Source of the DNA: Bacillus sp. Y1
Lineage (GTDB): Bacteria > Bacillota > Bacilli > Bacillales > Cytobacillaceae
Assembly: GCF_003586445.1 (NCBI RefSeq)
Contig: NZ_CP030028.1
Coordinates: 1,874,501 to 1,938,500 of the forward strand
Reading direction: 5' to 3'
Length of the DNA stretch: 64,000 nucleotides
The translations under genes were made by a program, and so were the position numbers. Below the pieces are notes generated by a model. That model did no database searches. It was not told the origin of the DNA and saw nothing but the letters and a program-made list of their open reading frames with translations. Shown piece by piece: positions 38,433-43,615 of the stretch; the stretch's first letter is position 1, and each line of letters opens with the position of its first letter.

Positions 38433-38490
38433 TCACAACTGTGATTTGGTTCACTACAGTGATTATCATTCTCAAATTATCATGGAAGTA
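38433..38490 (+). promoter_or_regulatory. Candidate Fnr-type box and promoter for the heme-copper oxidase operon
   Basis: TGTGATTTGGTTCACT (38440-38455) fits the Bacillus Fnr pattern TGTGA-N6-TCACT exactly. A -10-like TATCAT lies at 38478-38483, which puts the box centre about 41-43 bases before the expected start site, the position for class II activation. Two further palindromes overlap it: TCACAACTGTGA (38433-38444) and TCACTACAGTGA (38451-38462). They could bind the same or another dimeric regulator. Confidence 0.6.
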
Positions 38491-38512: not shown

Positions 38513-38656
38513 ATGAGTGAGAACAATGTTGATAATCAAATGGGGAGTAATTTCTCCACATCAAAGGTTGGGACATGGATTTCTGTAGGAATGGTTGCAG
38601 GTGTAATACTTGTTTCTTATTTTATTTTATTTGGACTTTATATGAGTCGAGTGTAG
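38513..38656 (+). CDS. Heme-copper oxidase subunit IIa-like small membrane protein
   Basis: A 47-residue protein with a polar N-terminus (MSENNVDNQMGSNFSTSK) and one helix (about 22-43), the layout of the small subunit IIa of B-type oxidases. AAGGGGG precedes the ATG, and the CuA subunit gene starts 13 bases after its stop. Its position and shape support the call more than its sequence does. Confidence 0.65.
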   Translation: MSENNVDNQMGSNFSTSKVGTWISVGMVAGVILVSYFILFGLYMSRV

Positions 38657-38669
38657 GGGAGGAAGAGAT

Positions 38670-39131
38670 ATGCATCTGGATGAAAAAATTTGGCTGACAC
38701 TAAGTTTCGGTATGATTATGATATTTATGTTAATCACAGGTTATCAAACCTTTGCTCTCGAGATGGGCCCACCAAGTCATCAGGAAACGATTGATCCTAA
38801 GAAGGTAGATCAAACCGCACCCTTTAATGAACCAGGAATAAAGAAAATTGGTGAGAACGAATATGAAGTGGTCATGACGTTGCAAATTTTTAGCTTTACA
38901 CCCAATGCGATTGAAGTTCCTGCTGGGTCAAAGGTTCACTTCATTCTAACTTCAAAGGATGTGGTACATGGATTTGAGGTAGCAAACACAAATATTAATG
39001 CAATGGTTATGCCAGGGCATATACAGAAAATTACTCAAACCTTTGATCAACCAGGCGAGTATTTGGTGTTATGTAACGAATATTGTGGGGCTGGCCATCA
39101 AATGATGAGCATGACCATTAGCGTGAAATAA
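38670..39131 (+). CDS. cbaB: CuA-containing subunit II of a B-family heme-copper oxidoreductase
   Basis: A 153-residue protein with one N-terminal helix (about 9-30) and a periplasm-side cupredoxin domain. The binuclear CuA ligands are complete: H100 (DVVHGFEV), C135, E137, C139, H143 and M146 (CNEYCGAGHQMM). The short single-helix form is that of ba3-type subunit II. It takes electrons from a cytochrome c-like donor or a quinol route and hands them to subunit I. Confidence 0.85.
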   Translation: MHLDEKIWLTLSFGMIMIFMLITGYQTFALEMGPPSHQETIDPKKVDQTAPFNEPGIKKIGENEYEVVMTLQIFSFTPNAIEVPAGSKVHFILTSKDVVHGFEVANTNINAMVMPGHIQKITQTFDQPGEYLVLCNEYCGAGHQMMSMTISVK

Positions 39132-39150: not shown

Positions 39151-40845
39151 TTGGAAACAGTAATACCATCAAAGGAAAAAGTGACAGTTTTTAACAAAGC
39201 CAATCAAGTGCTTGGAATTCATATAGAGGATGCAAGAATCACGAAATCATATCTTTTGGTTGCTTTTATCGCATTGCTACTTGGTGGATTCCTCGGTTTA
39301 TTACAAGGACTGAACCGTGCGGGTGTGTTGGAACTACCTGTATGGCTAAATTATTATCAAATCCTTACAGCACATGGTCTACTACTGGTAGTGGTACTTT
39401 CTGCATTTTTTACAATCGGCTATTTCTATGCAGGATTATCACATACATTAGGAGGACTACTTCCTAAAGTGAGAAAAATGGCTTGGATTGGATTTTGGAT
39501 GAAAATGTTTGGTTTTGTCTTAGTTGTTATTCCTATTTTAATGAATGAAGCATCTGTTATGTATACATTCTATCCACCTATGGCAGCTCACCCAATGTTT
39601 TATTTTGGACTCGTTTTTATTGTACTTGGGGTATGGATGCTAGCAGCAGGAGCTTTTGTGAATGTTTCCCACTGGAGAAAGACTCATAAAGGACAGCATC
39701 TTCCTATTCTTGCTTTCTTTGCTACAGGTGTATTTGTTTTATTAGTTGGTGCAACGGCGTTTGTTGCGGTCGAAGTACTTTTTATGATAATTCCATGGTC
39801 ACTAGGATGGGTGGATACGATTAATGTAATGGTGGCGCGTACACTGTTCTGGGCTTTTGGTCATACAGCGGTAAATATTTGGTATTTAACAGCCGTTTCT
39901 GCATGGTATGTAATTGTGCCAAAGATTATTGGAGGCACCCGATTTAATGATTATTTAACACGTGTAGTGGTAATTGCCTTGGTTATTATGAACATCACCG
40001 GTGGATTTCACCATCAAATTATTGACCCAGGCATTTCGCTCCCGATTAAATTCATGCACGTATTTATGAGTTTGGCTATAGGTTTTCCTTCTTTAATGAC
40101 GGCGTATGCGATGTTTAGAGTTTTCGAACGGACCGGTAGAAGAAAAGGTGGAAAGGGAGCATTAGGCTGGTTGAAGAAACTGCCTTGGGGTGATGTGCGC
40201 TTTCTATCTCCTTTCATTGCCATGGCAGCGTTCGCCCCTGCTGGAGCAGGAGGGATCGTTCAGAGCACGAACCAATTAAATCAGGTTGTTCATAATACGA
40301 TGTGGATCGTAGGTCACTTTCATTTAACTCTTGGAATGACAGTAGTGATGACATTTTTCGGTATTAGCTACTGGTTAGTTCCTTTCGTTTCAAAACGTGT
40401 TTTGACTCCACAGATGAATAGAATTGGAGTGGTACAAACCATTATTTGGACCATTGGAATGGTCATCATGGCTACTTCAATGCATATTGTTGGGTTGTTA
40501 GGCTCTCCACGAAGAACATCATATACCACATATGGCGAGCATGCTGCAGCCCAAGCTTGGGACCCGTATATGATGATGATTGGAATTGGCGCAACGTTTT
40601 TATTGATTGCTGTCATCATTCAAGTATACGCCATATTTAATATGATGTTCTTTGCTCCAAAAGGGGAAACAGAGTTCCCTATAGCCGAGGTTGAAGCAGC
40701 AGAATCTCCAACACCATATTTAACCGAGCGTTGGGGTGTTTGGGTAATTATCATGTTAATCGTTGTTGCTATGGCCTATGTATTGCCGTTAACAGATATG
40801 ATCGTTAATGCACCACCAGGATCGCCACCATTTAAAACATGGTAA
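39151..40845 (+). CDS. cbaA: B-family heme-copper subunit I, ba3-like; possible CuA-type nitric oxide reductase
   Basis: A 564-residue protein with about 13 helices. It starts at TTG 39151 with AAGGGGGG 8 bases upstream. Metal ligands visible by comparison with Thermus ba3 are H75 (low-spin heme), H238, H287-H288 (CuB) and H389/H391 (high-spin and low-spin heme). The Tyr that in ba3 oxidases sits four residues after the first CuB His and is covalently linked to it is replaced here by N242 (GHTAVN against GHPIVY). Oxygen reductases need this Tyr; B-family-related NO reductases, such as the CuA-NOR of Bacillus azotoformans, lack it. The usual database name would be ba3 oxidase, but NO reduction is a real alternative. 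Confidence 0.85.
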   Translation: METVIPSKEKVTVFNKANQVLGIHIEDARITKSYLLVAFIALLLGGFLGLLQGLNRAGVLELPVWLNYYQILTAHGLLLVVVLSAFFTIGYFYAGLSHTLGGLLPKVRKMAWIGFWMKMFGFVLVVIPILMNEASVMYTFYPPMAAHPMFYFGLVFIVLGVWMLAAGAFVNVSHWRKTHKGQHLPILAFFATGVFVLLVGATAFVAVEVLFMIIPWSLGWVDTINVMVARTLFWAFGHTAVNIWYLTAVSAWYVIVPKIIGGTRFNDYLTRVVVIALVIMNITGGFHHQIIDPGISLPIKFMHVFMSLAIGFPSLMTAYAMFRVFERTGRRKGGKGALGWLKKLPWGDVRFLSPFIAMAAFAPAGAGGIVQSTNQLNQVVHNTMWIVGHFHLTLGMTVVMTFFGISYWLVPFVSKRVLTPQMNRIGVVQTIIWTIGMVIMATSMHIVGLLGSPRRTSYTTYGEHAAAQAWDPYMMMIGIGATFLLIAVIIQVYAIFNMMFFAPKGETEFPIAEVEAAESPTPYLTERWGVWVIIMLIVVAMAYVLPLTDMIVNAPPGSPPFKTW

Positions 40846-40890: not shown

Positions 40891-40920
40891 TGCTCAGCTT
40901 AGGATATGGAAGTGATCTCC

Positions 40921-41556
40921 ATGCTAAAAAACCGACATACTACTATTTCATATATCGTGGTAATTTTGTTTGGATTTCTTTTGTTTTATATCGGAACAGA
41001 TGGATTTAAAGCATTTACTGCAGAAACTGCCAGAATCAATGAATTAAAAGAGGAAAAGCCTGTCTTTCCACAAGTAACAATGGAGGACAGCAAAGGCCGA
41101 ACGTATTCTCTTTCCGAATTCGATAATAAATATGTATTAATTACCTTTCTGTACACCTCTTGTGGAACTATCTGTCCTCAGTTAGAAAAAAATATGGCAG
41201 AACTTTATGAGAGACTTCCTCAATATGTAGGAAACGAAATCTTATTTCTAAGTATTAGTTTTGATCCCACTAGAGATGACCCAGATAGACTAGAAACGTA
41301 TCGAAAGGCTTTTGGTAGTGATGGGGACACGTGGAGAATGGCAAGAATCGTGGATAAGAACGAATTAGATTTGTTGCTGAAGCGATTTGGTGTCATTGTT
41401 ATTCCAGATGGAAACGGAAACTTTACCCATAATTCCGCCTTCTATTTAGTAGATAAGACAGGAAGTTTAAGTGAGGTAATGGATTATACAAAAATTGAGG
41501 AAGCTGCTAGTAAAATTGCCACCTTGATTGAAAGTGAAAAGGGGATTAAGAAATGA
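40921..41556 (+). CDS. SCO1/SenC family copper chaperone
   Basis: About 211 residues: an N-terminal membrane anchor (about 8-26) and a thioredoxin-like domain. The copper-binding CxxxC is C81-x3-C85 (SCGTIC) and the conserved His is H170 (FTHNSAF). SCO proteins insert copper into the CuA site, consistent with the subunit II gene in the same operon. The start is uncertain between ATG 40906 and 40921; the latter has GGAAGTGA 5 bases upstream. Confidence 0.85.
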   Translation: MLKNRHTTISYIVVILFGFLLFYIGTDGFKAFTAETARINELKEEKPVFPQVTMEDSKGRTYSLSEFDNKYVLITFLYTSCGTICPQLEKNMAELYERLPQYVGNEILFLSISFDPTRDDPDRLETYRKAFGSDGDTWRMARIVDKNELDLLLKRFGVIVIPDGNGNFTHNSAFYLVDKTGSLSEVMDYTKIEEAASKIATLIESEKGIKK

Positions 41557-42110
41557 CATCCTTCATATATGGCTTGTTGTTATATATTTTTCTCATGATT
41601 CCTCCAGTAGCTAACTTAGTAGAATCCATAATGATTACACATATGCATATGCAAATGCCCTTCCTTGTTATAGCTGGCTTCTTAATGGGGAAACTCGTTC
41701 AACGAAGATTTCCACTTTTCTTTGAAAAATGGAATAGCAATGGCATCCCTGGAATCACCTTGTTTTTGATTATAATTATCTATTGGACGATCCCTCGAAC
41801 GATGGACGAAGCACTAACCGTACAAAGTGTTGAAGTATTTAAATTTATTAGTTTGCCATTTCTAGCAGGAATTCCACTAAGAGACAGCTGGAGCAAACTC
41901 AGGTCCTATGGAAGGAATGTGGTAATTGTCATTTTTATGATTAAATACTTTGGGATGGGAGCTCTCTATATTTGGTGGCCAAGTCAATTGTGCAACAACT
42001 ATCTATTAATTGACCAACTCACCCTCGGATGGGGATTTATAACCACTGCTCTTTGCCTGTTATTCTATTTAATTTATGTGTTTATGATAGATCCTTCTGA
42101 CTATGAGTAA
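41553..42110 (+). CDS. Membrane protein of the oxidase operon, CtaG-like
   Basis: A 185-residue protein with about five helices. It overlaps the SCO stop by ATGA, so it is coupled to it. The N-terminal ITHMHMQMPFLVIAG is rich in His and Met and recalls the HMVQH segment of caa3-type CtaG assembly factors, though it is shorter than that family. A role in copper handling or assembly is inferred from context only. Confidence 0.55.
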   Translation: MTSFIYGLLLYIFLMIPPVANLVESIMITHMHMQMPFLVIAGFLMGKLVQRRFPLFFEKWNSNGIPGITLFLIIIIYWTIPRTMDEALTVQSVEVFKFISLPFLAGIPLRDSWSKLRSYGRNVVIVIFMIKYFGMGALYIWWPSQLCNNYLLIDQLTLGWGFITTALCLLFYLIYVFMIDPSDYE

Positions 42111-43276: not shown

Positions 43277-43615
43277 TTAGTGTTGTTGGAATAGTTCTAT
43301 TTCGTGATTTTGTGCAGTTACTCCTTTTTCAGTCGCACTAATTGATTTTAATACTAGCTCGGAAAAAGCCTCTACTGCTGGAGATAACCACTTTTTCTTT
43401 TTTATAAGCATATGAGAATAAATTGGTTCAAAGTTTTCAGAGTGTGTTAGGACTTTTAGCTTTCCATTCTCTACATGTTCTTTCACTGTAATGTAAGGCA
43501 AGGCAGAAAATCCAATTCCACTCATAACAACCTGCTTAATTGCTTCTATACTCCATATATGGTCAGGGTTTGGCTCGTTGTTCAAAAAAAATTTTTGCCA
43601 AACATGAAAAGTCAT
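43277..43615 (-). pseudogene. C-terminal remnant of a LysR family regulator
   Basis: The 112 residues match only the last third of a LysR effector domain (SIEAIKQVVMSGIGFSALPYITVKEHV...GKLKVL). The N-terminal helix-turn-helix is absent: upstream on the same strand there is an in-frame stop just before the first ATG, no ribosome site, and no related sequence before the next gene. It is best read as a truncated gene. Confidence 0.7.

Follow-up and report, generated by a model that had tools for sequence, protein, structure and literature searches.

A haem-copper gene cluster of Bacillus sp. Y1 very probably encodes a bNOR-type nitric oxide reductase behind a conserved FNR-type box

Does a gene resembling that of a ba3 oxygen reductase, but encoding Asn in place of the Tyr that is linked to a His in ba3, specify an oxidase or a nitric oxide reductase (NOR)? 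The question is raised by cbaA, found in a 64-kb stretch of Bacillus sp. Y1 DNA (NZ_CP030028.1, positions 1,874,501 to 1,938,500; hereafter the window), for which a reading made without database searches (the sequence-only reading) had suggested NO reduction. Our results indicate, with a probability of about 0.93, that the cluster containing cbaA specifies a membrane-bound NOR of the bNOR (CuANOR) kind, which turns NO into N2O; for the protein of the window itself, it is homology that argues for this activity. The cluster and its upstream box comprise the following features, with positions in the window:

38440..38455, + strand: FNR-type box TGTGATTTGGTTCACT, preceding the cluster (exact TGTGA-N6-TCACW match)
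38513..38656, + strand: cbaC, subunit IIa-like membrane peptide of 47 aa with a single span (translation, tblastn homologues)
38670..39131, + strand: cbaB, CuA subunit II, 153 aa (PF00116, 49 bits)
39151..40845, + strand: cbaA, catalytic subunit I of the bNOR, 564 aa (PF00115, 261.5 bits; alignments and trees)
40906..41556, + strand: 216-aa copper chaperone of the SCO1/SenC type, corresponding to the published senC (PF02630, 66.8 bits)
41553..42110, + strand: cbaD, for a membrane protein of 185 aa, the gene that closes the published cluster (position as in PMC3475470)

The cbaA frame, which opens with a TTG in the ORF list of the window, encodes a protein that aligned with the PDB sequence of Thermus ba3 (1ehk) with an E value of 6.4e-90 over residues 28-555. 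The alignment bears out two claims of the sequence-only reading: all six metal-binding His are kept (H75, H238, H287, H288, H389 and H391), and N242 occupies the column of Thermus Y237 (GHTAVN vs GHPIVY). By this comparison, CbaA is the subunit I of a B-family haem-copper enzyme, with Asn242 at the place, four residues past the helix VI His, where ba3-type O2 reductases have a Tyr.

To count residues we used 19 bNORs (the window and loci L006-L023), picked by whole-protein similarity, and 11 ba3 relatives, consisting of the ba3 oxidase of the same genome (L003) and 10 of the 11 loci L024-L034, with L025 left out because of an internal stop. Residue 242 is Asn in 19/19 bNORs and Tyr in 11/11 ba3 relatives, indicating that Asn242 is a family trait and not a single stray codon, and the six His are retained in 30/30 proteins. 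A larger count gave Asn in 82/82 bNORs, including 80 named loci (the best 80 of 579 relatives), and is partly circular because one of the two peptide patterns used to search for these named loci itself contains Asn and is present in all 80. Beside the six His and N242, the 19 bNORs all have Y245, S250, N281 and G284, whereas 11/11 ba3 relatives show Tyr, Leu and Tyr at positions 242, 245 and 249, as do 15/15 ba3-type proteins that include Thermus, haloarchaeal and proteobacterial examples. In Thermus numbering, Y248, S309 and T312 are retained in the bNOR and two tyrosines of the K channel, Y237 and Y244, are lost. Tyr245, encoded at 39883-39885 of the window, lies seven residues past the CuB His, and S250, N281 and G284 separate the bNORs from the ba3 relatives in like manner; it is possible that these four residues are part of an altered proton path.

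The gene order of the window matches the cbaC-cbaB-cbaA-senC-cbaD cluster described in B. azotoformans and Neobacillus bataviensis by Heylen and Keltjens (2012; PMC3475470). According to that paper, subunit II of B. azotoformans has the same N-terminus as the purified CuANOR, the cross-linking Tyr is an Asn, a change used there to assign NOR function, and N. bataviensis BABA_00225, 70% identical in subunit I to B. azotoformans, is assigned to CuANOR. The sequence-only reading likewise has the B. azotoformans enzyme lacking this Tyr. CbaA is 76% identical to BABA_00225, which is represented among our loci by L088 (N. bataviensis LMG 21833 contig02), where the match, from 46719 to 45070, overlies the published cbaA1 (46749 to 45067; PMC3475470). 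As our loci and trees did not include the B. azotoformans sequence, the connection with the purified enzyme runs via BABA_00225 and the N-terminus quoted in the paper. This N-terminus is similar, not identical, to that of CbaB, with agreement at 17/20 positions, and CbaB also displays, by eye, the CuA ligands C-x3-C-x3-H-x2-M plus an upstream His. Likewise, CbaC is the positional counterpart of a 46-aa peptide whose N-terminus was detected in the purified CuANOR preparation (PMC3475470). Neither CbaC nor CbaD retrieved any Pfam or NCBIfam match. In tblastn searches of the best 80 of 579 named relatives, cbaB and cbaA were found in 80/80 loci, SCO in 78/80, and cbaD and cbaC (the latter at E up to 0.01) in 77/80 each; the sequence of L048 and L082 stops near the SCO/cbaD region, and L094 has neither SCO nor cbaD though its sequence continues. 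The nearest of these 80 is Robertmurraya korlensis, with 98% identity. Beyond the cluster, a 112-aa ORF (window 43277-43615, - strand) aligns with no more than positions 138-206 of the 209 in a LysR substrate-binding domain and looks like a truncated regulator.

By similarity and gene order, then, CbaA is a member of the bNOR family (formerly CuANOR/qCuANOR), which includes the purified B. azotoformans enzyme. Clusters BAZO_06394-06409 of B. azotoformans and BABA_00215-00230 of N. bataviensis are like that of the window in gene order, subunit sizes, CuA and the Asn-for-Tyr change, judging from PMC3475470. The operon parts named in the sequence-only reading (CuA subunit with its ligands, subunit IIa-like peptide, SCO and FNR-type box) are all present, and its proposal of an NO reductase gains support from the grouping with bNOR/CuANOR, the published gene order and the Tyr-to-Asn change. 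This proposal is not new, bNOR being already an established and named family of the Bacillota; PMC11388526 uses this name and reports bNOR in 123/433 Bacillota genomes with NOR and/or Nos.

A tree had been suggested as a check on this assignment. Our trees contained 20 bNOR rows (the window, 18 of the 80 named loci and L023), and ba3 rows for L003, 8 of the 11 loci L024-L034 (without L025, L030 and L032), five plasmid loci and Thermus. When distant sNOR-like and A-family rows were included, the 20 bNOR rows formed one side of a branch (84/100, 81% of 200 bootstraps) in a tree where the ba3 rows were not a single group, the branch of the sNOR-like rows exceeded 6 changes per column, and warnings were raised for long-branch joining and for the odd letter make-up of Thermus. 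Removal of the distant rows gave a bNOR/ba3 split of 100/100, present in 100% of bootstraps, in trees of 35 and 32 rows, the former again with a long-branch warning and the latter, free of warnings, omitting Thermus and two proteobacterial rows (L136 and L137). CbaA therefore groups with the bNORs, including BABA_00225, and apart from the Tyr-bearing ba3 oxidases. It shares with the ba3 oxidases of Thermus and of its own genome the fold, the six His and a CuA subunit, but differs from them in Tyr237 to Asn, Tyr244 to Val and Leu240 to Tyr, and in lying on the opposite side of the tree.

The sNOR, cNOR and qNOR types were discarded. Four sNOR-like loci (L127-L130) also have Asn at the fourth position past the helix VI His (three with GHIFAN, one with GHVFCN), but they are open frames of 491-502 aa that form a separate tree group; their length and Asn suggest that they are sNORs, to be compared with the qCuANOR type II of PMC3475470. 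With 564 aa, against about 490, and outside that tree group, CbaA does not fit the sNOR-like set. Likewise, cNOR and qNOR were ruled out, because the 23 matched PDB sequences were all cytochrome c oxidases, with ba3 as the best, and because the partner subunit is a CuA protein.

An AlphaFold model of CbaA (mean pLDDT 76.9, from 11 sequences and without cofactors) retrieved with Foldseek ba3 oxidase entries as the top 20 PDB matches, followed by 7deg; it thus supports the fold, not the chemistry. In this model residues 226-259 form one continuous helix, which holds Y245. This bears on the idea that CbaA is an O2 reductase lacking the usual His-Tyr cofactor and relying on another residue, for instance the invariant Tyr245, which we consider extremely improbable. 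The Tyr/Leu difference at position 245 between bNORs and ba3 relatives speaks for it, the predicted position of Y245 is one turn beyond N242 in the same helix, and the C-family oxidases, where the cross-linked Tyr is supplied by a different helix, are a precedent for a relocated Tyr. However, seven residues from H238 correspond to about 10 angstrom along the helix, which would put a direct bond out of reach; a Tyr-bearing ba3 oxidase and two A-family oxidases are already encoded in the genome; and the bNOR family includes a purified NO reductase (PMC3475470).

If CbaA is a bNOR, its chemistry can be sketched from characterised relatives, from which we infer NO reductase activity, electrogenicity, electron donors and haem type. 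Electrons would enter from a small cytochrome c, such as cytochrome c551, and/or menaquinol to CuA in subunit II, and would pass from there through the low-spin haem to the haem b3-CuB centre in subunit I, where two NO would be reduced to N2O and water. At this site Asn replaces the His-linked Tyr, which takes part in the splitting of O2 by O2 reductases and is dispensable in NO reduction. The enzyme of the window is probably electrogenic, as PMC5826923 describes CuANOR as a very active, electrogenic NOR.

Across the 64-kb window, TGTGA-N6-TCACW is matched exactly by the box TGTGATTTGGTTCACT alone, and matches with up to one mismatch (6 observed, 8.17 expected on average) are in no excess over chance; support for the box hence comes from relatives. 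Within 250 bases before cbaC, TGTGA-N6-TCACA with up to one mismatch occurs in 64/81 upstream regions (the window and the best 80 of 579 relatives), as opposed to 0.9 per 81 in shuffled upstream regions, which preserve single-base content only, and 0/80 inside cbaA. Each of 29 permuted half-site arrangements appeared in 0 or 1 of the 81 regions, and other half-site spacings gave 0 (2-5 bases) or 2 to 8 (7-12 bases). These upstream stretches were set by tblastn matches to cbaC, possibly starting past the true start, or, in three loci with no cbaC match, from 150 bases before cbaB; the 81 loci are mutually related, so the 64 carriers are not independent events, and the distance from box to gene varies. 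As far as these comparisons go, the box upstream of bNOR clusters is conserved. The FNR-type label follows the B. subtilis Fnr consensus. Of 17 Crp-type matches in the genome, seven Crp/Fnr proteins were read, and four of them end in a C-x2-C-x4-C motif, as in B. subtilis Fnr.

From characterised relatives, induction of the bNOR by Fnr under oxygen limitation would be expected, and the conserved site makes this a simple regulatory prediction. Our search of the open literature, with subscription papers outside its scope, yielded no prior report of Fnr control of bNOR, and the word Fnr has no occurrence in PMC3475470. E. coli FNR has a [4Fe-4S] cluster that is sensitive to NO in vitro (PMC8139620), an awkward fit with Fnr control of an NO consumer. 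A candidate FNR-type site with one mismatch also lies about 345 bases upstream of position 986 of L003, within the 400 bases upstream of the ba3 subunit II gene.

The sequence-only reading had further proposed to look for nitrite reductase and nosZ. The genome (5,028,825 bases, one contig) contains four PF00115 frames, which correspond to two A-family oxidases (GHPEVY), the ba3 oxidase L003 (GHPLVYFW) and CbaA; with all four accounted for, no second NOR, qNOR included, was found. NirK gave no match at E up to 1e-3, and neither NarG nor Sec-type NosZ, the only NosZ model used and one over its cut-off in 0/14 control genomes, was found over cut-off. Weaker candidates were rejected: the four short NosZ matches cover only the C-terminal part, two of them being the CuA subunits of the bNOR cluster and of L003; a cytochrome d1 match for NirS (29.6 bits, Pfam cut-off 25.5) is a 360-aa YVTN-type beta-propeller lipoprotein; and the weak NarG matches are the assimilatory nitrate reductase NasC, itself over cut-off with 1314.6 bits, and two molybdopterin proteins under every cut-off shown. 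By these models, which covered NarG, NirK, NirS (own genome only) and Sec-type NosZ, no such pathway partners were found, and a denitrification role is unsupported in this genome; the NOR reading itself stands on homology. This differs from B. azotoformans, to which PMC3475470 attributes two qNORs, a second CuANOR type and nosZ. The genome also contains a bacterial NO synthase (L131, G000:C1:3031554-3032624); a 416-aa globin-type ORF (L148, G000:C1:1867270-1867587), about 7 kb upstream of the window, that is possibly the flavohaemoglobin Hmp; and a YVTN beta-propeller lipoprotein (L132:1315-2394) scoring 91.3 bits against a clade III lactonase-type N2O reductase model with a cut-off of 700.

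We then surveyed 193 genomes of the same GTDB family, telling bNOR from ba3 by score alone (at least 1016 bits vs at most 693, in a capped match list headed by all the high scores). By this score bNOR is present in 99/193, and one further copy, in G095 (G095:C22:324915-326249), is interrupted: its frame has a TGA within it and covers only positions 2-446 of the 555 in the model. NirK was assigned to 70/193 genomes at E of at most 1e-40 (153 to 211 bits), no match reaching the TIGR02376 cut-off of 296.3 bits. At this threshold it occurs in 59/99 bNOR carriers vs 11/94 non-carriers (59/40 vs 11/83, uncorrected for kinship), so the 40/99 carriers of bNOR without NirK are a sizeable minority against overall co-occurrence. 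Also, PMC11388526 mentions 73 NOR-only Bacillota genomes, with all NOR types pooled. NO synthase was ruled out as a general NO source for bNOR, being rarer in carriers (25/99 vs 46/94; 25/74 vs 46/48; odds ratio 0.35, uncorrected for kinship). Two records among the named relatives, L076 (titled Pseudomonas sp. ISL-84) and L112 (Arthrobacter beigongshangensis), contain bNOR clusters of the Bacillaceae kind, with 79% and 73% identity, and are likely mislabelled or contaminated.

Since no dissimilatory NO-forming enzyme was found in this genome, the NO used by the enzyme would probably come from outside or from side reactions, and the bNOR probably removes or respires it. It could serve in oxic or micro-oxic detoxification rather than in anaerobic respiration, a role we hold to be quite possible, if short of an even chance: NarG and NO-forming nitrite reductases were not found in the genome by our models, the globin-type ORF suggests that NO stress is encountered, and PMC11388526 cites a proposal that bNOR reduces NO aerobically. 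Nevertheless, the conserved FNR-type box points to control by oxygen limitation, and the co-occurrence with NirK suggests a link to denitrification in many carriers. That the cluster is left over from a denitrification pathway since lost appears highly unlikely, for its five genes are intact, ligands and upstream box are retained, and R. korlensis has the same cluster and box, even though the accompanying pathway was not found by the models used and G095 documents an interrupted frame in a relative. A tentative proposal, which we rate as rather doubtful, is that the bNOR is a stand-alone, Fnr-controlled enzyme conserving energy from the NO of neighbours, both here and in many NirK-less relatives.

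The bNOR described here is a clear further case, from a genome close to Robertmurraya. The best NCBIfam match of CbaA is cytochrome c oxidase subunit I (82.2 bits, cut-off 670.75), so these models would not name it as a NOR, and KEGG labels bNOR as coxA, according to PMC11388526. A capacity to turn NO into N2O is therefore easily overlooked in genomes that look like those of plain aerobes. In Bacillus sp. Y1 the bNOR apparently stands without the rest of denitrification and may consume NO made elsewhere; if the stand-alone proposal were true, NO respiration would be a separate trade in cells without nitrate or nitrite respiration.
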